From the NCBI RefSeq assembly GCF_016806835.2, contig NZ_CP086112.1, positions 452,001 through 516,000 of the forward strand: a stretch of 64,000 nt of DNA, in the 5' to 3' direction. A model generated the notes under the pieces. That model was not told the origin of the DNA. It saw only the letters and a program-made list of their open reading frames with translations, and did not search any database. The stretch comes from Skermanella rosea (GTDB taxonomy: Bacteria; Pseudomonadota; Alphaproteobacteria; Azospirillales; Azospirillaceae). The position numbers were made by a program, and so were the translations under genes. Positions 27,775-58,130 of the stretch are shown here, one piece after another (position 1 is the first letter of the stretch; every line of letters starts with the position of its first letter).

Positions 27775-29169
27775 TTACCCGCGGTCCTGGTCGATGGCGG
27801 CCATGTACGCGGTATCCAGTCCAAAGTATTCCAGACGATCCATGAAGGACGGCCTAACGCCGGCCGACCGGAAGGTTCCGCGGATGGTGCCGTCGCGGTT
27901 GTCGCCCTGGAATTCGAAGGTGAAGAGGTCCTGGGTCACCATGACGTCGCCCTCCAGTCCCGACAGCTCCGACACCTGGGTCACCCGGCGGACGCCGTCG
28001 CGCATGCGCTGGACCTGCACGATCAGGTGGACCGCGCTGGCGATCTGGTGGCGGACCGCGCGCGGCGGCAGGTTGACGCTGCCCATCATCACCATGTTCT
28101 CGATGCGGGCGAGCGCGTCGCGGGTGTTGTTGGCGTGGACGGTGGACATGGAGCCGTCATGGCCGGTGTTCATGGCCTGGAGCATGTCGAACGCCTCGGC
28201 GCCGCGGACCTCGCCGATGATGATGCGGTCCGGCCGCATCCGCAGCGCGTTCCGCACCAGGTCGCGCTGGGTGATCTGGCCGTGGCCCTCCAGGTTGGGC
28301 GGCCGGGTCTCCAGCCGGACCACGTGGGGCTGCTGGAGCTGGAGCTCGGCGGCGTCCTCGATCGTCACGACCCGCTCGCCGACGTCGATCATGCGCGACA
28401 TGGCGTTGAGCAGCGTCGTCTTGCCCGAGCCGGTGCCGCCGGAGATGATCACGTTCAGCCGGGCGCGCGCGCAGATCTCCAGCACCCGGGCCATCGGCTC
28501 CGACAGGCTGCGGTATCCGACCAGCGTCGCGAAATCGATGCGCCGGCGGGCGAACTTGCGGATCGAGATGCAGGTGCCGTCCAGCGCCAGCGGCGGCACC
28601 ACGATGTTGACCCGGCTGCCGTCGGGCAGGCGGGCGTCGACCATGGGGCTGGACTCGTCGATCCGGCGGCCGATGCCGCCGGCGATCCGCTGGGCGATGT
28701 TGAGCACGTGCTGCTGGTCGCGGAACCGCACGTTGGACAGCACCAGCTTGCCCTGCTGCTCGACGAACACCCGGTTCGGCCCGTTCACCATGATGTCGGT
28801 GATCCGGTCGTCCTCCAGCAGCGGCTCCAGCGGGCCGAAGCCCAGCATGTCGTGGACCAGCTCGGTGGCGAGCTGGACCTGTTCCCGGCTGTTGAGCTGG
28901 AAGCGATTCTCGGTCGCGATCTCGTCGATCAGGGATTCCAGCAGCGGGCGGAGGGCCGCCGGCTCCAGCCGCGACACGGCGGCCGGATCGATCCGGTTCA
29001 TCGCCTCGGTCCGGATGCCGTCGAGCGAGCGGGCGCGCGGCGACGCCGGGTCCGGCGCGACCGGCCCCTCGACCGGCGCCAATGCTGGGACCGGGACGGA
29101 GGCCGGCGCCGGCACCGGCTGGGGAGCCGCGGAAAGCGCCCCCGGCTTGCGGCCGAACAGGGCGTTCAT
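27775..29169 (-). CDS. cpaF: TadA/CpaF secretion ATPase of the Flp pilus
   Basis: This 464-residue traffic ATPase has a Pro/Ala-rich N-terminus, then an N-terminal domain (DMLGFGPLEPLLEDDRITDIMVNG) and the ATPase core. Walker A is GGTGSGKTT (about 244-252), the Asp box is TIEDAAELQL, Walker B is RIIIGEVRGAEAFD, and the His box is GHDGSMSTVHAN. It powers pilin assembly through the TadB/TadC platform at the inner membrane. Its ATG overlaps the tadZ stop as ATGA, and the much longer frame upstream is antisense sequence. All catalytic motifs are intact. Confidence 0.95.
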   Translation of the reverse strand: MNALFGRKPGALSAAPQPVPAPASVPVPALAPVEGPVAPDPASPRARSLDGIRTEAMNRIDPAAVSRLEPAALRPLLESLIDEIATENRFQLNSREQVQLATELVHDMLGFGPLEPLLEDDRITDIMVNGPNRVFVEQQGKLVLSNVRFRDQQHVLNIAQRIAGGIGRRIDESSPMVDARLPDGSRVNIVVPPLALDGTCISIRKFARRRIDFATLVGYRSLSEPMARVLEICARARLNVIISGGTGSGKTTLLNAMSRMIDVGERVVTIEDAAELQLQQPHVVRLETRPPNLEGHGQITQRDLVRNALRMRPDRIIIGEVRGAEAFDMLQAMNTGHDGSMSTVHANNTRDALARIENMVMMGSVNLPPRAVRHQIASAVHLIVQVQRMRDGVRRVTQVSELSGLEGDVMVTQDLFTFEFQGDNRDGTIRGTFRSAGVRPSFMDRLEYFGLDTAYMAAIDQDRG

Positions 29170-36201: not shown

Positions 36202-36250
36202 TGGTCAAGACAGATTGGCTCATTGACACCAATGGTCAAATAACTTACCC
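36202..36250 (+). promoter_or_regulatory. Candidate lut promoter/operator region
   Basis: TGGTCAA occurs twice, at 36202 and 36233, exactly 31 bases (three helical turns) apart. A TTGAC-N7-GTCAA inverted repeat lies at 36223-36239. TTGACA at 36223 could be a -35 element, but no good -10 follows. The segment TGGTCAAATAACTTACC (36233-36249) resembles motifs at 54241 and 54990 near the second lactate locus. A GntR/FCD regulator is the likely binder. Confidence 0.4.
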
Positions 36251-36290: not shown

Positions 36291-37079
36291 TTGAGCGCCA
36301 TGTCCACACCGTCGGCCGCCGTTCCCCCGGAACGGCCGGAAACGGTCTATTTCTTCGGCACCTGCCTGGTCGATCTGTTCTATCCGCAGGCCGGGCTCGC
36401 CGGCATGGAGCTGCTCAAGCGCCAGGGCCTCCGGGTGGTGTTTCCCCAGGACCAGACCTGCTGCGGCCAGCCGGCCCGCAACTGCGGCTTCTTCGAGGAG
36501 GCGCGCGCCGTCGCCCGCGCCCAGTTCGACGCCTTCCCCGAACCCTGGCCAATCGTCGTCCCGTCGGGGAGCTGCGCCGGGATGATGCGCGTCCACTATC
36601 CCCAGCTGTTCGCCGACCAGCCCGACCGGGAGCGGGCCGAGGCGTTCGCCGCGCGGATCTACGAGCTGAGCTGGTTCCTCGTCCATGTGCTGGACTGCAA
36701 GCTGGCGGACCACGGCGAGCCGGTGACGGTGACCTGGCACGCCTCCTGCCACTCCATGCGCGAGATGGGCGTGACCGACGAGCCGAAGCGGCTGCTCCGC
36801 TCGCTGGAGAACGTGACCCTGGTCGAGAACCCGCGCGAACGGGAATGCTGCGGCTTCGGCGGCACCTTCTCGGTCCGCCAGCCGGAGGTTTCCGCCGCCA
36901 TGGTCGCGGACAAGATCGACGCCCTGCGCTCCACCGGCGCCACCGAGATGGTCACCGGCGACTGCGGCTGCCTGATGAACATCACGGGCGCCTTGGACAG
37001 GATGGGCGGCAAGGCCGGCCCTCCGCTGCGCGGCCGGCATCTCGCCGAATTCCTGCTGGAGCGCAGCGATGACCGCTGA
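36291..37079 (+). CDS. lutA: LutA, L-lactate oxidation iron-sulfur subunit
   Basis: This 262-residue protein has two CCG (cysteine-rich) domains with the motifs TCCGQPARNCGF and ECCGFGGTF. They are the same type as in glycolate oxidase GlcF and heterodisulfide reductase and probably hold Fe-S clusters. LutABC together oxidise L-lactate to pyruvate. I use the TTG at 36291 because GGGGG lies seven bases upstream; the in-frame ATG at 36300 is the other choice. Its 3' end overlaps lutB by 11 bases. Confidence 0.92.
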   Translation: MSAMSTPSAAVPPERPETVYFFGTCLVDLFYPQAGLAGMELLKRQGLRVVFPQDQTCCGQPARNCGFFEEARAVARAQFDAFPEPWPIVVPSGSCAGMMRVHYPQLFADQPDRERAEAFAARIYELSWFLVHVLDCKLADHGEPVTVTWHASCHSMREMGVTDEPKRLLRSLENVTLVENPRERECCGFGGTFSVRQPEVSAAMVADKIDALRSTGATEMVTGDCGCLMNITGALDRMGGKAGPPLRGRHLAEFLLERSDDR

Positions 37080-38526
37080 CGTTCAGACCGGCGCCGGGGC
37101 GCCGAAGGCCGGCAGCTTCGCGGAGCGCGCGCACCTGGCCCTGGACGACAAGCCGCTGCGGGCCAATTTCCGCCGCGCCATGGACGGCCTGATGGCCAAG
37201 CGGGCGGCGCAGTTCCCCGACGCCGCCGACCTGGCCGCGCTGCGCGCACGGGGTGCCGCGATCAAGGAGCGGGCGCTGGCCCGGCTGCCCGACCTGCTGG
37301 AGCAGCTGGAGGCGCGCTGCACCGGGAACGGCATCAAGGTCCACTGGGCCGAGACCACCGACGAGGCCAACCGCATCGTTCTCGGCATCTTCCGGGAGCA
37401 CGGCGTGAAGACCGTGGTCAAGGGCAAGTCGATGGTGTCGGAGGAGATGCACCTGAACGCCTTCCTGGGCGAGCACGGCATCCAGGCGATCGAGTCCGAC
37501 CTGGGCGAATACATCATCCAGCTCGCCGGCGAGATGCCCAGCCACATCGTCATGCCTTGCATCCACAAGAACAAGGGCCAGATCGGCGCCCTGTTCGCGG
37601 AGCATATCGAGGGCCAGCGTTATACCGAGGACGTGGACGAGCTGACCGCCGCGGCCCGGCGCGTGCTGCGCGACCGCTTCGCGGAGGCGGACGCCGGCAT
37701 CTCCGGCGTCAATTTCGCGGTCGCGGAGACCGGCACCCTGGTGCTGGTCGAGAACGAGGGGAACGGCCGCCTCTCGACGACCCTGCCGCCGCTCCACGTC
37801 GCGGTGATGGGAATCGAGAAGCTGGTCGAGACCCTGGACGACATCCCGCCGCTGCTGGCGCTGCTGCCGCGCTCGGCGACCGGCCAGCCGATCACCACCT
37901 ATGTCAACATGATCACCTCGCCCCGCCGGGAGGGCGAGAAGGACGGCCCGCGCGAGGTCCATCTCGTGCTGCTCGACAACGGCCGGACCCGCGTCTACGC
38001 CGACCCGGAGCTGCGCGAGACGCTGCGCTGCATCCGCTGCGGCGCCTGCATGAACCACTGTCCGGTCTATGCCCGCGTCGGCGGGCACACCTACGACGCG
38101 GTGTATCCCGGCCCCATCGGCAAGATCCTGACGCCGCAGATCGCCGGGCTCGACGCGGCGGGCGACCTGCCCCACGCGTCCAGCCTGTGCAACGCCTGCG
38201 TCGAGGTCTGCCCGGTCAAGATCCCGATCGCCGATATCCTGGTCCGGCTGCGCCGGGAGGCCGTGAGGCCATCCGCTTCCAACGCGGTGAAGGGCGCCGG
38301 CGGCGGCTGGACCCTATCGGAAAGCTCCGCCTGGGCCGGTTGGAAATGGCTCCACGCCAATCCCGTCCTGTACCGCCTGGGCTCCCGCGCCCTGGCCCTG
38401 GCCGGCAACCTGATCCCGGCGGGCCTGCCGCCGCTGAAGGCCTGGACCAGCGTCCGCTCCAAGCCGAAATTCGCGCCCAGGACCCTTCACCAACTCGCCC
38501 GCGACAAGGGTTTCGACGATGCATGA
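37069..38526 (+). CDS. lutB: LutB, L-lactate oxidation iron-sulfur/LUD subunit
   Basis: This 485-residue protein has an N-terminal LUD domain (VVKGKSMVSEEMHLN, VAETGTLVLVENEGNGR). A ferredoxin-type region with two 4Fe-4S motifs follows: CIRCGACMNHCP (about 322) and CNACVEVCP (about 380). The C-terminal tail is the usual LutB extension. It is the central electron-transfer subunit of the cytoplasmic lactate oxidising complex. The gene overlaps lutA by 11 bases and lutC by 8 bases, so the three are translated together. Confidence 0.94.
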   Translation: MTADVQTGAGAPKAGSFAERAHLALDDKPLRANFRRAMDGLMAKRAAQFPDAADLAALRARGAAIKERALARLPDLLEQLEARCTGNGIKVHWAETTDEANRIVLGIFREHGVKTVVKGKSMVSEEMHLNAFLGEHGIQAIESDLGEYIIQLAGEMPSHIVMPCIHKNKGQIGALFAEHIEGQRYTEDVDELTAAARRVLRDRFAEADAGISGVNFAVAETGTLVLVENEGNGRLSTTLPPLHVAVMGIEKLVETLDDIPPLLALLPRSATGQPITTYVNMITSPRREGEKDGPREVHLVLLDNGRTRVYADPELRETLRCIRCGACMNHCPVYARVGGHTYDAVYPGPIGKILTPQIAGLDAAGDLPHASSLCNACVEVCPVKIPIADILVRLRREAVRPSASNAVKGAGGGWTLSESSAWAGWKWLHANPVLYRLGSRALALAGNLIPAGLPPLKAWTSVRSKPKFAPRTLHQLARDKGFDDA

Positions 38527-39208
38527 CTCCTCCGGCGCCCGCGCCCGCATCCTGTCCCGCCTGCGCGCCGCCCCGCCGGCCCCGGCGCCCGCGCTGCCGG
38601 ACTGGCGGGCTCCCCGGTTCGACGCGCCGGCCCGGCTCGACCGGTTCCGCACCATGCTCGAAGCCATGAAGGCGGAGGTCCACGAGGTCGACGCGGCGGA
38701 CTGGCCGCGCCGCCTGCGCACCCTGCTGGACAACCGCGGCGTCCGGGCCGTGGTCCATGGCGACGGCTCCGACGCGGCGCGGCAGCTGGCCGAAGCCTGG
38801 AGCGCCGATCCCCAGGCGCCGCGGCTGGTCGCCTATGATCGGGCGATCGAGCAGTGGAAAGGCGAGCTGGTCCACGGGGTGGATGCCGGCGTCACCGCCG
38901 CGGTCGGCGGCATCGCCGAGACCGGCACGCTGATCCTGTGGCCGACCGCTGCGGAGCCCCGCCTGATGTCGCTGCTGCCGCCGATCCACGTGGCGCTGGT
39001 GGAGGAGGACACCATCCGCGACAGCTTCGCCGAGGTGATCCTGGAGCAGGGCTGGGCCGGGCGGATGCCGACCAACGTCGTCCTGGTCTCCGGCCCGTCG
39101 AAGACCGCCGACATCGAGCAGACGCTGGCCTTCGGCGTCCACGGCCCGAAGGAGCTGATCGTCCTGGTGCTCAAGCGGTCCGGAGGGGTCCGGCCGATCC
39201 CTGGATAA
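38519..39208 (+). CDS. lutC: LutC, L-lactate oxidation subunit
   Basis: This 229-residue LUD-domain protein has the conserved stretch GGIAETGTLILW and SLLPPIHVALVEEDTI, followed by SGPSKTADIEQTLAFGVHGPKEL, the LutC/YkgG signature. It forms part of the lactate-oxidising complex with LutA and LutB. The ATG lies inside the lutB 3' end (8-base overlap). The regulator gene follows 96 bases later on the same strand. Confidence 0.93.
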   Translation: MHDSSGARARILSRLRAAPPAPAPALPDWRAPRFDAPARLDRFRTMLEAMKAEVHEVDAADWPRRLRTLLDNRGVRAVVHGDGSDAARQLAEAWSADPQAPRLVAYDRAIEQWKGELVHGVDAGVTAAVGGIAETGTLILWPTAAEPRLMSLLPPIHVALVEEDTIRDSFAEVILEQGWAGRMPTNVVLVSGPSKTADIEQTLAFGVHGPKELIVLVLKRSGGVRPIPG

Positions 39209-39304: not shown

Positions 39305-40084
39305 ATGACCGAGCCGATCCGCCCCGCCAAGCTCGCGGACGCCATCGCCGACCGCCTGGAAAGGCTGATCCTCGAAGGATCGCTGCGGCCCGGCGAGCGC
39401 CTTCTGCCGGAACGGGAGCTGGCCCAGCGGTTCGACGTCTCCCGCCCGAGCCTCCGCGAGGCGCTGGACAAGCTGGAGCGGCGCGGCCTCCTGGTCAGCG
39501 AGCGCGGCGGCGCCACGCGGGTGGCGCCGTTGCTCGACGAGAGCTTCACGGCCCCGCTCGCCGATGTGGTCAACAGCAATCCCGAAGCGACCTACGATTA
39601 CCTCGAGTTCCGCGGCATCGCCGAAAGCTCGGCGGCCTATCTGGCGGCCCTGCGCGGCACCAGCGTGGACCGGGAGCTGATCCAGGAATGCTTCGCCGCC
39701 ATGGAGGCCGCCCACCAGAAGGAAGACCCGACCGACGAGGCGAACGCCGACGCCGACTTCCACCTGGCGATCTACGAGGCGTCCCATAACCTCTTCATGC
39801 TGCATGTCATGCGCTCGCTGTCGGAGATGCTGCGCAACGACGTGTTCTACAACCGCGCCACCCTCTATCTGAGGCGCAACGTGCGGGAACTGCTGCTGGC
39901 CCAGCACCGGGCGATCCACGACGGCATTATCGCCGGCGATCCCGAGACCGCCCGGCAGGCCGCGCGCGACCACATGGCCTTCACCTCCGGCGCCCTGAAG
40001 GAGATCGCCAAGGCCGACGCCCGCCTGGAAGTCAGCCTCAACCGCATCGCCCGCGCAGACGTCCTGGCCGGGCCGCCGCGCTGA
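39305..40084 (+). CDS. FadR-type (GntR) regulator of lactate use, LldR-like
   Basis: This 259-residue regulator has an N-terminal winged helix (about 8-75; LERLILEGSLRPGERLLPERELAQRF, VSRPSLREALDKLERRGLL). An FCD ligand domain follows (about 90-245), with metal-site histidines in FHLAIYEASHN, LLAQHRAIHD and ARDHMAF. FadR-subfamily proteins beside lut or lld genes respond to lactate and usually repress them. It is downstream of lutABC and may be co-transcribed. Its FCD domain is strikingly close to that of the HTH-less protein at 54333. Confidence 0.9.
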   Translation: MTEPIRPAKLADAIADRLERLILEGSLRPGERLLPERELAQRFDVSRPSLREALDKLERRGLLVSERGGATRVAPLLDESFTAPLADVVNSNPEATYDYLEFRGIAESSAAYLAALRGTSVDRELIQECFAAMEAAHQKEDPTDEANADADFHLAIYEASHNLFMLHVMRSLSEMLRNDVFYNRATLYLRRNVRELLLAQHRAIHDGIIAGDPETARQAARDHMAFTSGALKEIAKADARLEVSLNRIARADVLAGPPR

Positions 40085-52452: not shown

Positions 52453-54153
52453 TCAGGGGATCATCCAGGTGAAGACATAGGCCTGGAGGACGGTGATCAC
52501 GCCGATGATCGCGACGAAGAACAGGCTGTGCTTGAGCGTGAAGCGGAACAGGTCCGATTCCCGGCCGACCAGCCCGACCGCGGCGCACGCCACGGCGATC
52601 GACTGCGGCGAGATCATCTTGCCGGTGACGCCGCCGGTGGTGTTGGCGGTGACCATCAGGATCTCGGACAGCCCGAGCTGCTGGGCCGTGGTCGCCTGGA
52701 GCGCCCCGAACAGGGCGTTGGACGAGGTGTCCGACCCGGTCAGGAACACGCCCAGCCAGCCCAGCACCGGCGAGAAGAACGGGAAGGCCTTGCCGGTTCC
52801 GGCCAGCAGCAGGGCCAGCGTCGAGGACAGGCCCGAGTAATTGGCGATGAAGGCGAACGCCAGCACCATGCCGATCGAGTAGATCGGGCGGCGCAGCTCC
52901 ATCAGCGTCTCGCCGAAGGTGGCGACGGCCGCCGCCGGCCGCATGCGCAGGAACACGATGGAGATCAGCGCGGTCAGCAGGATCGCGGTGCCGGTCGCGG
53001 AGACCAGGTCCAGCTTGTAGACGGCGTCGTAGGGCTTGGGCGAGGTGACGATCGGGGCGACCTTGGTGACCAGCTTGTCCAGCCCCTCGATCGGGAAATA
53101 GAACACGGTGGAGGCGAAGGCGCCGGCCTTGGCGAAGGCCGCCTTGAACGGGGCCAGGCTCCAGATCGTCACGATCACGGTCAGCACGAGGAAGGGCGAC
53201 CACGCCTTGATCACCTGCCCGGTGGTGTAGGTGGCGCCGGCGCCATAGCCGGCGTAGTCCGCGGTGGGCGTGACCGCGGCCCCGACCGCCCGCGGCACGG
53301 GGGCGCCGGCTTCCCGGTCGGAGAAGCGGAAGATGCGCTTCGGCTTCCACACCTTCAGGAACAGGGTCAGGCTGACCAGGCTGATCAGGGCGGAGGTGAT
53401 GTCCGGCAGCTCCGGCCCGATGAAGTTGGAGGTGAAATAGACGCCGAAGGCGAAGGTCGAGCCGGCGACCAGCACGGCCGGCCACGTCTCGCGCACGCCG
53501 CGGACGCCGTCCATGATGAAGACGATCCAGAACGGGACGAAGACGGCGAGCAGCGGCAGCTGGCGGCCGGCCATCTGGCCGATCTTGAAGGCTTCCAGCC
53601 CCGTCACCTGGCCGGCGACGATCATCGGGATGCCCATGGCGCCGAAGGCGACGGGGGCGGTGTTGGCGATCAGGCACAGGCCGGCGGCGTAGAGCGGGTT
53701 GAAGCCCAGACCGACCAGCAGCGCCGCGGTGATCGCGACCGGTGCTCCGAAGCCCGCGGCCCCTTCCAGGAAGGCGCCGAAGGAGAAGCCGACCAGCAGC
53801 ATCTGGAGGCGCTGGTCCTCGGTGATCGACACGACCGACGCGCGGATGATGTCGAACTGCCCGGTCTTCACCGTCACCTTGTACAGGAAGACGGCGGTCA
53901 GGATGATCCAGGCGATCGGCCACAGGCCGTAGACGAAGCCGTACCCGGCGCTGGCCAGCGCCTGGCCCACCGGCATGCGGTAGAACAGGATCGCGACGGC
54001 CAGGGCGATGGCGACGGTGATGGTGGCCGCGACATGGCCCTTCATCCGCAGGACGGCCAGCGCCACGAAAAAGAACACGATCGGAAGCGCCGCGACCAGC
54101 GCGGAAACCCACAGGTTGCCTGCGGGATCATAGATTTGCATCCAGGGCTGCAT
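52453..54153 (-). CDS. lldP: L-lactate permease
   Basis: This 566-residue LctP-family transporter has about twelve to fourteen helices. Its signature segments are [64 protein letters not shown] and [24 protein letters not shown]. It imports lactate (and often glycolate) with protons. It is divergent from the FCD-domain gene, and a GGT...ACC motif lies about 90 bases upstream of its start. Together with the Dld gene it forms the second lactate locus of the window. Confidence 0.95.
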
Positions 54154-54332
54154 ATTGTTTCCACTCTAGAATGCCGCACCCGGGCCTGTCGGGGCGCGTC
54201 GCGGCGGATTGCGGTTTATTTTCTGCCAGCCTGATCTTGTTTGGTAAAATTAATATACCGGCTGTCAGTATGGTGGATAAATCAGATGCCGGCCGCTTGT
54301 ACATGGAAAAATGCGTTGCCGAGGTGTCGCGG
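54154..54332. other. Divergent promoter region of the lldP/FCD locus
   Basis: This stretch lies between the permease start and the FCD-domain gene. It is locally AT-rich (54210-54300) and contains the GGTAAAATTAATATACC motif. An open frame extends from 54171 into the FCD gene, but its product here is not regulator-like and includes no helix-turn-helix. Confidence 0.45.
54241..54261. promoter_or_regulatory. Candidate lactate-regulator operator
   Basis: TTGGTAAAATTAATATACCGG contains GGTA-N9-TACC dyad symmetry. A close relative, TTGGCAAAAACATTTTACCGC, lies at 54990, before the Dld gene. FadR-subfamily GntR regulators favour TGGT...ACCA-type sites, so the regulator at 39305 is the best candidate binder. 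Confidence 0.45.
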
Positions 54333-54965
54333 ATGTCGCAGGCGTTGAAGTGCCGCAGGGCTGTTCGGTATCATTGGCCCATGACCGACACATCCGACGC
54401 GACCGATCCGGGGGATGCCGTAGGCGAGGCCGATCCGCTGACCCGCCTGCTCCAGTGCCATCCGGAGACCGCCTTCGACTATCTGGAGTTCCGCCGGATG
54501 ATGGCGGGGCCGTCGGCCGCCTTCGCGGCGGAGCGGGCCACGCCGGAGGATATCGAGCGGCTGCGGGCCTGCCTGACCGCCATGGAGGAGGCCCATGGCC
54601 TGGATGATCCCTCGCGCGAGGCGGCGGCCGACGCGGAGTTCCACCTCGCCATCTACGAGGCCGCGCACAATCAGGTGATGATCGGGATCATGCGGCAGTT
54701 CATCCGCATGATGAGCGAGAACGTGTTCTACGACCGCACCAGCCTGTATTTGCGCCGCGGCGTCCGGGACAGCTTCCTGCGCCAGCACCAGGCGATCTTC
54801 CACGCCATCGCCGCCGGCAACCCGGAGGCGGCGCGCGCCACCGCCGACGCCCATATCGCCTCGACCACCGAGGCCCTGCGCGAAGCCCAGCGGGCGGACG
54901 CGCGGCTAGAGGTCGCACTTCGCCGCCAGCAGGGCGTCAACCTCGTGACGAGCAAAGGAAAATAG
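54333..54965 (+). CDS. FCD-domain protein without DNA-binding domain
   Basis: From the ATG at 54333 (GAGG eight bases before; an ATG at 54381 is an alternative) this gives 210 residues. Almost all is an FCD ligand domain: FDYLEFRRMMAGPSAAFAAE, EFHLAIYEAAHNQVMIGIM, RQHQAIFHAIAAGNPEAARATADAHI. It is very similar to the FCD domain of the regulator at 39305, including the metal/ligand histidines. The winged helix normally found before it is absent, and no remnant is visible in any frame upstream. It may form mixed dimers with the full regulator or be a decayed gene. It sits between lldP (divergent) and the Dld gene. Confidence 0.8.
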   Translation: MSQALKCRRAVRYHWPMTDTSDATDPGDAVGEADPLTRLLQCHPETAFDYLEFRRMMAGPSAAFAAERATPEDIERLRACLTAMEEAHGLDDPSREAAADAEFHLAIYEAAHNQVMIGIMRQFIRMMSENVFYDRTSLYLRRGVRDSFLRQHQAIFHAIAAGNPEAARATADAHIASTTEALREAQRADARLEVALRRQQGVNLVTSKGK

Positions 54966-54989: not shown

Positions 54990-55010
54990 TTGGCAAAAAC
55001 ATTTTACCGC
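54990..55010. promoter_or_regulatory. Candidate operator upstream of the D-lactate dehydrogenase gene
   Basis: TTGGCAAAAACATTTTACCGC shares the GGYA...TACCG layout with the motif at 54241. It lies 25 bases after the FCD gene stop and about 210 bases before the Dld start, where a promoter would be expected. Confidence 0.42.
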
Positions 55011-55220: not shown

Positions 55221-58130
55221 ATGCCAGACGGAACCTCCCTCTCCGGACCCTCGCGGGCGGCCGACGCCGCCGATGCTTTCGGCCCCGCGATCGCCGAATT
55301 TACCGCCCTGCTCGGCCCGGAGCGGGTGATCCGCGACCCGCTGCGGCTGCTGGCCTACGGCACCGACGCCAGCTTCTACCGGCTGGTCCCCCGGGTGGTG
55401 GTCAAGGTGGAGAGCGAGGAGGAGGTGGCCGCCATCCTCGCCGCCTGCCGCCGCGACCGGCTGCCGGTCACCTTCCGCGCGGCCGGCACCAGCCTGTCCG
55501 GGCAGGCGGTGACCGATGGGGTCCTGGTCGTCCTGGGCGACCGCTGGAACCGGATCGTGGTGGAGCAGGGCGGCAGGCTGGTCCGCCTCCAGCCGGGCGT
55601 GCTCGGGGCGGACGCCAACCGGCGCCTCGCGGCCCATGCCCGCAAGATCGGCCCGGACCCGGCCTCCATCGACAGCGCCAAGATCGGCGGCATCGCCGCC
55701 AACAACTCGTCGGGCATGTGCTGCGGCACCTCGGACAACAGCTACAAGACGCTGGTCGCCATGCGGCTGCTGCTGGCCGACGGCACCCTGGTCGATACGG
55801 GAGACGCCGCCAGCCTGGCCCGGTTCCGGCAGAGCCACGGCGGGTTGCTGGACCGGCTGGCCGGGCTGGGCGCCGCGACCCGGGCCGATGCGGACCTCGC
55901 GGCCCGCATCCGCGCCAAGTTCGCGATCAAGAACACCACCGGCTACAGCATCAACGCCCTGGTCGATTTCGAGGACCCGGTCGAGATCCTCCAGCACCTG
56001 ATGATCGGGTCGGAAGGCACGCTGGGCTTCATCGCCGAGGTGACCTACCGCACCGTACCCGACCATGCCCACAAGGCGAGCGCGCTGCTGCTGTTCCCCG
56101 ACATCGGCGAGGCCTGCCGCGCCGTGGCGCTGCTGAAGCCGGCCCCCGTTTCCGCCGTCGAGCTGATGGACCGGGCGGCGCTCCGCTCGGTCGAGGACAA
56201 GCCCGGCATGCCGGCGGAGATCCGCGGGCTGGCCGACGGCGTCACCGCCCTGCTGGTGGAGACCCGCGCCGAGGACGCCGCCGGCCTGGACGCCAACATC
56301 CGCGACATCGCCTCCGTCCTGGCCGGCGTCGCGACCCTGGGGCCGGCCGCCTTCACCTCGGCGGCGGACGAGTACGGCAAGCTGTGGAAGATCCGCAAGG
56401 GCCTGTTCCCCGCCGTCGGCGCCGTGCGCCGGGCCGGCACCACGGTGATCATCGAGGACGTGGCCTTTCCCATCAAGGACCTGGCCGCCGCCACCCTGGA
56501 CCTCCAGGCGCTGTTCGCCAAGCACGACTACCACGAGGCGATCATCTTCGGCCACGCCCTGGATGGCAACCTGCACTTCGTCTTCACCCAGGACTTCGCG
56601 ATCGATTCCGAGGTCGAGCGCTACGCCGCCTTCATGGACGACGTCTGCAAGCTGGTCGTCGGGACCTATGACGGCTCGCTCAAGGCGGAGCACGGCACCG
56701 GCCGCAACATGGCGCCCTTCGTCGAGATGGAGTGGGGCCGCGACGCCTATCTGCTGATGCGCGAGATCAAGGCCCTGCTGGACCCGCTCGGCATCCTGAA
56801 CCCCGGCGTCATCCTGAACGACGATCCGAAGGCGCACCTGCGCGACCTGAAGCCGATGCCCAAGGCGGACCCGCTGGTCGATACCTGCATCGAGTGCGGG
56901 TTCTGCGAGCGCATGTGCCCCTCGGCCGGGCTGACCCTGACGCCGCGCCAGCGCATCGTCGGCTGGCGCGAGATTTCCAGCCTCGCCGATACCGGGTCGG
57001 ACCCGGCGCGCGAGGCCGACCTGCGCAGCCTCTACGACTACCAGGGGTTGGACACCTGCGCCGCCTGCGGCCTGTGCGCCACCGCCTGCCCGGTCGGGAT
57101 CGAGACCGGCCTGCTGACCAAGGCGCTGCGCGGCCGCGCCCAGTCGCCGCTGCGCCGCCGGATCGGCAGCCTCGCCGCCCGGCATTTCGGCGGCGCCCTG
57201 GCCGCGGCCCGCCTGGGGCTGGGCGCCGCGGCCCTGTCGCGCCGGGTGCTCGGGCGGAACGCGACCGTCTCCCTGGCCGGATCGGCGCGGCGGCTGTCCG
57301 GAGGACGCATCCCGAAGGTCGGACCGTCGCTGCCCGGCCCCGGGGCCATCCCGTCCGCCGGGGGCGATCCGGCCGGCACGCCGGTCGTCTATGTCCCGAG
57401 CTGCGCCACCCGGACCTTCGGCGCCTCGCCCGACGCGCCGGAGCGGGACGGCCTGCCCGAACGGTTCACGGCCCTGCTCGGCAAGGCCGGCTTCCGGGTC
57501 GTCTTCCCCGAGGGCCTCGGCGGCCTGTGCTGCGGCCAGGCGTTCGAGAGCAAGGGGCTCGCGGAGACGGCGGACGCCATGACCGAGACGATGGCCGCCG
57601 CCCTCGCCAAGGCCAGCGACGGCGGCCGCCTGCCCATCGTGATGGACGCCTCCGCCTGCACCCTCCGGCTGAAGCGCACCCTGGCCGGCCGGCTGACCGT
57701 GCTGGACAGCATCGAGTTCCTGCACGACCACGTGATGCCCCGCCTTGAGGTCGTCGCGAAGGAGGCGGCCCCCGTGCTGGTCCATGTCAACTGCTCGGCC
57801 CAGCGGCTGGGCCTCGGCGACAGGATCACGGCGCTGGCCGGGGCCTGCGCGGAGACGGTCGTCGTCCCCGAGGGGGTCGGCTGCTGCGGCTTCGCCGGCG
57901 ACAAGGGTTTCGGCACCCCGGAACTCAACGACCACGCGCTCCGCCGCCTGCCGGAGTCGGTCCCCTGGGACTGCGAGGGCGGCTATTCCTCCAACCGGAC
58001 CTGCGAGATCGGCCTGTCGGAACATGCCGGCGTGCCCTACCGCTCGATCGTCTATCTGGTGGACAGGGTCACCCGGCGGCGCTGCCCCTCTCTCCCCGAT
58101 TTCTCCACGCCGGCGGACGGGCGGGTGTAG
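55221..58130 (+). CDS. dld: FAD/Fe-S D-lactate dehydrogenase (Dld-II type)
   Basis: The product is 969 residues. An N-terminal FAD-binding PCMH domain (VTFRAAGTSLSGQAV, GGIAANNSSGMCCGT) leads to a FAD-oxidase C domain (GHALDGNLHFVFTQDF, KAEHGTGRNMAPFVE). Two 4Fe-4S motifs (CIECGFCERMCP near 555, CAACGLCATACP near 612) and CCG domains (GLCCGQAFESKG, GCCGFAGDKG) follow. This is the architecture of Dld-II enzymes that oxidise D-lactate to pyruvate and pass electrons to the quinone pool or a cytochrome. The ATG at 55221 has AGGAAGG upstream; longer starts are less likely. It complements LutABC. Confidence 0.9.
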   Translation: MPDGTSLSGPSRAADAADAFGPAIAEFTALLGPERVIRDPLRLLAYGTDASFYRLVPRVVVKVESEEEVAAILAACRRDRLPVTFRAAGTSLSGQAVTDGVLVVLGDRWNRIVVEQGGRLVRLQPGVLGADANRRLAAHARKIGPDPASIDSAKIGGIAANNSSGMCCGTSDNSYKTLVAMRLLLADGTLVDTGDAASLARFRQSHGGLLDRLAGLGAATRADADLAARIRAKFAIKNTTGYSINALVDFEDPVEILQHLMIGSEGTLGFIAEVTYRTVPDHAHKASALLLFPDIGEACRAVALLKPAPVSAVELMDRAALRSVEDKPGMPAEIRGLADGVTALLVETRAEDAAGLDANIRDIASVLAGVATLGPAAFTSAADEYGKLWKIRKGLFPAVGAVRRAGTTVIIEDVAFPIKDLAAATLDLQALFAKHDYHEAIIFGHALDGNLHFVFTQDFAIDSEVERYAAFMDDVCKLVVGTYDGSLKAEHGTGRNMAPFVEMEWGRDAYLLMREIKALLDPLGILNPGVILNDDPKAHLRDLKPMPKADPLVDTCIECGFCERMCPSAGLTLTPRQRIVGWREISSLADTGSDPAREADLRSLYDYQGLDTCAACGLCATACPVGIETGLLTKALRGRAQSPLRRRIGSLAARHFGGALAAARLGLGAAALSRRVLGRNATVSLAGSARRLSGGRIPKVGPSLPGPGAIPSAGGDPAGTPVVYVPSCATRTFGASPDAPERDGLPERFTALLGKAGFRVVFPEGLGGLCCGQAFESKGLAETADAMTETMAAALAKASDGGRLPIVMDASACTLRLKRTLAGRLTVLDSIEFLHDHVMPRLEVVAKEAAPVLVHVNCSAQRLGLGDRITALAGACAETVVVPEGVGCCGFAGDKGFGTPELNDHALRRLPESVPWDCEGGYSSNRTCEIGLSEHAGVPYRSIVYLVDRVTRRRCPSLPDFSTPADGRV

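Follow-up and report, generated by a model that had tools for sequence, protein, structure and literature searches.

A conserved FCD protein without a winged helix in lactate gene clusters of Skermanella and its relatives, a candidate partner of a full-length GntR regulator

Background

FCD regulators form a large class of metabolite sensors, and they are usually viewed as dimers of complete winged-helix proteins. In Skermanella rosea, a gene placed next to the lactate permease gene encodes an FCD domain with no DNA-binding domain in front of it, and a complete regulator of the GntR/FadR type is encoded in the same stretch of 64,000 nucleotides (hereafter the window; positions 452001-516000 of its contig, in a genome of 7.76 Mb). 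The question raised by this locus is what a sensor domain could do without its winged helix. An earlier note on this DNA offered two answers: the protein could form mixed dimers with the complete regulator and block or modulate it, or the gene could be losing its function. In this work the gene, here called the solo, was followed through its relatives, and its domain composition, residues, phylogeny and control region were analyzed.

Results

The solo gene encodes an FCD domain alone

The solo gene occupies positions 54381..54965 of the forward strand (stop codon included), and its product has 194 aa. In this 194-aa form Pfam recognizes FCD (PF07729) alone, with an E value of 1.2e-26 and 93.9 bits where the cut-off is 24.3; the GntR winged helix (PF00392) is absent from the Pfam result. 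The earlier note had described the protein as nearly all FCD with no winged helix in the upstream frames, and both parts of this description were confirmed: a hidden Markov model derived from 50 winged-helix (wHTH) domains of full regulators, which scores 4e-42 on the complete regulator at 39305 used as control, gave no match (E up to 10) in the six frames of the 700 bp that precede the FCD core of the solo. Throughout the genome, 34 of the 35 FCD matches are preceded, at a distance of no more than 400 bp, by a GntR domain encoded in the same direction, and the solo is the sole exception. Among 32 rows searched with Pfam, including 30 solos from this and other genomes, FCD was found in all and GntR only in the full-length control. 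A hidden or degraded upstream helix was also considered, and rejected: under other settings tblastn extended the match of the window solo in frame, giving 163 bits as compared with 161 without the extension, and the extended part overlaps the promoter and operator region described below. In other genomes, the wHTH matches at the solos G466-G469, G124:C15 and G475:C207 belong, by their position, to the adjoining full regulator gene, and the traces detected at G513 (7.6 bits), G063 (1.3) and G508 (0.8) are not significant.

The start of the gene had been placed at 54333, just before a promoter-like pair of hexamers. The most likely start is instead the ATG at 54381, given that in S. mucosa the annotated gene (an 'FCD domain-containing protein') begins with the equivalent ATG and that the promoter-like pair lies between 54333 and 54381.

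A full-length regulator and the lactate genes share the window

The neighbors of the solo are those named in the earlier note. The L-lactate permease gene, lldP, is divergent from it (52453..54153, reverse strand), and on the forward strand a dld-type gene (55221..58130, its start placed as in the annotated gene of S. mucosa) encodes an FAD-binding/Fe-S dehydrogenase that is a D-lactate dehydrogenase candidate. The lactate-oxidation genes lutA, lutB and lutC (36291..39208, forward strand) lie upstream of the presumed partner, a full-length GntR/FadR-type regulator (39305..40084, forward strand); Pfam finds in it both GntR and FCD. The likeness of the solo to the C-terminal domain of this regulator also held, with 83 of 164 residues identical (51%) in an ungapped BLASTP alignment. 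Neither protein reaches the NCBIfam equivalog cut-off for LldR (311 bits; solo 121.3, full regulator 215) or for PdhR (330 bits; solo 123.6, full regulator 255.3). By score, the full regulator is nearest to PdhR, yet it stays under both cut-offs.

Intact solos were seen only in genomes that carry the full regulator

Relatives were searched with the full regulator as query, and a match that begins near residue 58-84 was taken as a solo. Conservation between lldP and dld, which the earlier note had proposed to look for, was found in the genus, where a solo orthologue adjoins both genes in four of five genomes, the window genome included; S. mucosa, S. stibiiresistens and S. aerolata are carriers. 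In these four genomes the order is lldP / solo-dld; lutABC and the full regulator are found elsewhere on the contig or plasmid that carries the solo, at a distance of 4 to 56 kb. The fifth genome has neither the solo nor a close full regulator. In the wider family of the window genome (82 genomes) the full regulator is present in 58, and an intact solo is rare among these (5/58): the four of the genus and that of G037, which lies between dld and lldP.

In a sample of the class (385 genomes, E up to 1e-38, no more than 6 candidates scored per genome) one new solo genome appeared, G124. In its family, f44 (55 genomes), a solo accompanies the full regulator in 31 of 34 genomes, the exceptions being G464, G478 and G493, and is found in none of the 21 genomes that lack the regulator; the Fisher p value of 2e-12 for this co-occurrence is indicative only, since related genomes are treated as independent. 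A search of the order (317 genomes, no more than 8 candidates scored in each) added the arrangement lldP / solo-lutABC-dld in G645, of a third family (f165), and a possible solo match at a contig edge in G610. In the phylum sample, 104 of 398 genomes had a match, and among the matches listed the open frames measure at least 253 aa except in the window genome and G124, with no further obvious solo; the length of the frame says little about solo status, however, because the window solo itself sits within an open frame of 314 codons. When five plasmid matches were opened, a solo was present on pSM-2 of S. mucosa only, and three of the others are genes of 771-786 bp. Two pairs of loci came from the same genomes, so L048 and L045 were omitted as duplicates of L080 and L079.

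The full regulator is present in every counted genome with an intact solo, that is, the window genome, 35 others and G645, and no intact solo without a full regulator was detected among the genomes searched; this co-occurrence may partly reflect membership of one pathway. The reverse does not hold: as the solo is absent from 53 of the 58 genomes of the first family and 3 of the 34 of f44 that have the full regulator, the latter can manage without it.

A few loci carry genes that look broken. The plasmid pMPOP01 of Methylorubrum populi has a 495-bp FCD gene (L087 5983-6477) adjoining an IS6-like transposase gene, a probable true truncation. In G063, a C-terminal FCD fragment that starts around residue 132 of the full regulator (L074 9795-10145) is situated about 1.5 kb from an intact full gene and looks like the remnant of a second copy. 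The full regulator is apparently disrupted by a frame change in G651 (L143 5545-6281), and its match contains an in-frame TGA in G035 (L075 1654-2408) and G496 (L139 5035-5811), which perhaps represent sequencing errors or real losses.

Most solos are placed with lactate genes

The most frequent arrangement, observed for 19 solos, is divergent from lldP and ahead of the lut genes, with dld further on in 17; for the other two (G507, G486) the stretch ends inside the lut genes. Eight solos are located between the full regulator and lutABC. Two more follow the full regulator, and the sequence retrieved around them shows no lut genes; in each of these genomes a further solo is located at lut. None of the lactate genes sought was present within the fetched stretch around three solos. 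In G508, lut and dld are near the solo and lldP was not detected in the stretch, and the solo G475:C128 is cut by the end of its contig.

The ligand residues are invariant and the predicted fold resembles an isolated dimerization domain

The ligand histidines were said to be all kept, and this is the case well beyond the window: all 37 solos compared have D84, H88, H136 and H158, which correspond in the alignment to the metal site of FCD regulators. In PMC4746285 and PMC7674646, a three-His metal site is described for TM0439, LldR of Corynebacterium glutamicum (with Zn) and PS5454, and the residues D146/H150/H195 for DgoR. In the solo, the four residues would bind metal and lactate. Both the neighboring genes and the D/H/H/H set favor lactate or a similar hydroxy acid as the ligand; given that the full regulator scores nearest to PdhR and under both cut-offs, the ligand may also be pyruvate or another acid.

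Other positions separate the solos from the full regulators. Position 42 is A in 36 of 37 solos and G in one, whereas it is E or D in all 53 full regulators compared; position 27 is H in 37 of 37 solos, whereas the full regulators have mostly R or N, and H in 7 of 53. D118 is likewise a near-invariant difference. In the distant FCD domains of the window genome, 30 of 35 of which could be placed in a rough alignment, position 42 is sometimes non-acidic. A charge-complementary heterodimer interface at R134 was considered and finds no support in the genus, where the partner residue is A or G, not acidic.

The AlphaFold2 model of the solo, from an alignment of seven rows, is all-helical (mean pLDDT 83.5, pTM 0.76, residues 1-16 low). 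Its top structural match is 5tpm, the isolated C-terminal dimerization domain of PdhR from Escherichia coli (TM 0.69 by query and 0.87 by target), followed by DhdR. An FCD domain can thus exist apart from a winged helix.

These features bear on the idea that the solo acts without the full regulator, as a homodimer that, with metal and lactate or pyruvate bound, either serves as a buffer or acts on an enzyme or the permease. An FCD that folds and dimerizes by itself, as in 5tpm, is compatible with such a role; the near-invariant H27, A42 and D118 mark an evolutionary course apart from that of the full regulators, and the differences A42, D118 and R134 might even mean that the solo dimerizes only with itself. 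In the genus, moreover, the solo stays with lldP and dld in four genomes in spite of the distance to the full regulator. Against this, no intact solo was seen without a full regulator among the genomes searched; we consider this role rather doubtful.

Nearly all solos form one clade, and the gene is under purifying selection

A tree of FCD domains was built with 90 rows, 37 solos and 53 full regulators, the latter being a selection; the G063 fragment and the G475:C128 solo were left out as too short, and G645, found later, is absent. In this tree 36 of the 37 solos form one clade (support 97/88). The solo of G037 is placed beside the full regulators of its own family, and a single origin of all solos is not rejected (p-AU 0.30). 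It carries H27 and A42 as well, which points to either one origin or convergence after the loss of the winged helix. The helix may thus have been lost once (or twice) in the solo lineage. Within the genus, dN/dS ranges from 0.06 to 0.19 for the solos and from 0.03 to 0.15 for the FCD of their full regulators; for six solos of the second family it is 0.10-0.34. The distances among solos and among full regulators correlate (r 0.87, 23 genomes with both genes at hand), a value equally expected from shared vertical inheritance with or without interaction.

On this evidence, a regulator gene drifting after the loss of its helix-turn-helix is extremely improbable. That reading could account for the blank upstream frames, and the fragment in G063 does look like such a remnant. 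It is at odds with a clade of 36 solos plus a further one in a third family, with the synteny, with ligand residues kept in 37 of 37 solos and with a promoter pattern and start that are conserved (see below); the random decay of the domain that would mark a pseudogene is the opposite of the purifying selection found. The suggestion of a gene losing function is accordingly rejected.

Promoter-like and operator-like sequences precede many of the solos

Upstream of the solo, a sigma70-type promoter-like pair, TTGAAG-18-TATCAT, is present at 54345..54374 (forward strand), with its -10 box 6 nt before ATG 54381, so a leaderless start is predicted. A -10-like hexamer precedes the ATG in 22 of 39 solo rows, at 6 nt in 18 genes and at 7 nt in four, and leaderless transcripts are predicted for these too. 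The other 17 rows, where this hexamer was not found, include ten solos behind the full regulator and three without a nearby lactate gene; the remaining four comprise the solos of G037 and G508, the fragment in G063 and one solo that runs into a contig end. A consensus scan also returned a second pair, CTGCCA-16-TAAAAT (54223-54250, forward strand), which overlaps the operator candidate described next and, if real, would place the solo gene under operator control.

The operator candidate, TGGTAAAATTAATATACCG (TGGT-N11-ACCR), is located between lldP and the solo at 54242..54260. A second candidate with one mismatch, TGGCAAAAACATTTTACCG, lies between the solo and dld (54991..55009). A possible lldP promoter, TGTACA-17-TTATCC (54275..54303, reverse strand), was read by eye as conserved in the aligned intergenic regions and was missed by the consensus scan; the operator at 54242..54260 would fall just downstream of the putative lldP transcription start. 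All 22 genes with the promoter pattern have TGGT-N11-ACCR 125-140 bp before the ATG, G509 on the other strand only. In the window, a scan allowing up to one mismatch gave three matches against 0.21 expected, a number reached in 1 of 100 shuffles; the third match is at 28772, in another part of the window.

Of 51 full regulators, 22 have the motif in the 300 bp upstream of the gene, a few of these matches being GC-rich and possibly due to chance, as compared with 169 of 4000 random 300-bp windows; the other 29, that of the window included, lack it in the 300 bp upstream. Since full regulators preceded by the motif include some from genomes in which the search gave no solo, TGGT-N11-ACCR is probably the site of the full regulator. 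Upstream of lutA, an N10 near-match read by eye, TGGTCAAATAACTTACCC (36233-36250), may be a variant operator of lutABC. In G037, the region that separates dld from the solo holds a palindromic operator-like sequence, TGGTAAAATCAATTGACCA (L073 7017-7035), some 65 bp ahead of the solo ATG.

The half-sites of TGGT-N11-ACCR are 15 bp apart from center to center, 8 bp wider than the GT-N3-AC spacing that PMC4494728 gives for LldR and PdhR, and the canonical PdhR/LldR box, AWTTGGTNNNACCAAWT, was not found in the window with up to three mismatches. The exact sequence TTGGTNNNACCAA occurs in 1 of 139 loci. The wide spacing would suit a mixed dimer that stays at the operators, perhaps within a larger assembly that spans the distant half-sites, and there shifts the sensitivity to the ligand or strengthens repression. 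The eight genomes in which the solo directly follows the full regulator and precedes lutABC, an order that would fix the ratio of the two proteins, are also in line with this kind of co-repressor. Against it, the N11 spacing is equally present upstream of full regulators where no solo was found (e.g. G064, G065, G068, G069), which led us to reject the solo as the cause of the wide spacing, and co-repression appears unlikely.

Discussion

The solo keeps the parts for sensing and pairing, lacks the one for binding DNA and was seen only together with a full regulator; on these grounds, and supported by precedents in this and other families, a trans-acting partner of the full regulator is its most likely role. 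Mixed dimers would be the best-supported mechanism, considering the co-occurrence, the dimerization of the FCD domain (5tpm) and the FadR-family precedents; the pairing, the ligand, the sign of the effect and the feedback are what we infer from the comparisons above.

In the model that we propose, the solo would be a separate protein that corresponds to the effector-binding and dimerization half of an LldR/PdhR-like GntR regulator and is probably expressed from its own promoter. Its FCD domain would pair with that of the full regulator (39305), and the resulting heterodimer, with a single winged helix, would have a weak hold on the palindromic operators before lldP and dld, an effect that would depend on lactate or pyruvate. 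Since the solo gene belongs to the lactate cluster, and in relatives comes first in the lut operon, induction would increase the amount of the solo and help to keep the pathway on. An anti-repressor working through mixed dimers in this way has, in our judgment, slightly better than even prospects of being correct.

If so, the lactate switch would possess positive feedback and possibly memory, and a conserved partner without a helix-turn-helix, encoded inside the operon that it would help to control, would represent a regulatory layer hidden by the annotation 'FCD domain-containing protein'. The model predicts mixed dimers at the lactate operators, a prediction that involves two proteins and a 19-bp site, and the solo would be a natural part for the design of lactate sensors. 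Among eukaryotes, the Id proteins are the counterpart of a partner that lacks DNA binding. The more general proposal, that the solo FCDs in three families of one class are vertically kept, ligand-gated anti-repressors of lactate operons, held by selection as the GntR counterpart of TrlR and Id, is tentative, and we give it somewhat less than an even chance.

A transcription-factor homologue without a DNA-binding domain is in itself an already known kind of protein. No description of solo FCD proteins from lactate operons was encountered in the literature searched, which misses most subscription journals. The fold, the Asp/His residues of metal type and the lactate gene neighborhood relate the solo to LldR and PdhR, of the FadR subfamily of GntR regulators; unlike them, it has no winged helix and scores under both NCBIfam cut-offs. 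Each of ExuR and UxuR is a complete regulator. According to PMC9369180, heterodimers of ExuR and UxuR are proposed to derepress, and PMC12288454 describes DNA-binding-defective DgoR as dominant negative through mixed dimers. The likeness is that a FadR-family protein pairs, or is proposed to pair, with a second one, be it a paralogue or a defective copy, and repression changes as a result; the DgoR cases are plasmid-expressed variants, whereas the solo is a conserved gene.

A closer functional parallel is offered by TrlR of Agrobacterium, CerN of Cereibacter and FleT, which, as reported in PMC11655674, have no DNA-binding domain and act on a full-length homologue by controlling it. Like these proteins, the solo keeps the sensing and pairing part without the DNA-binding domain, and the genomes with an intact solo counted here also encode a full-length homologue; the class is one of function and not of homology. 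TrlR and CerN are LuxR-type proteins that respond to acyl-homoserine lactones, whereas the solo is an FCD of the GntR/FadR type, spread over several families, for which inhibition is a proposed effect. Read as a ligand-sensing, trans-acting partner of the full regulator, the solo would be comparable in logic to the TrlR/TraR pair.
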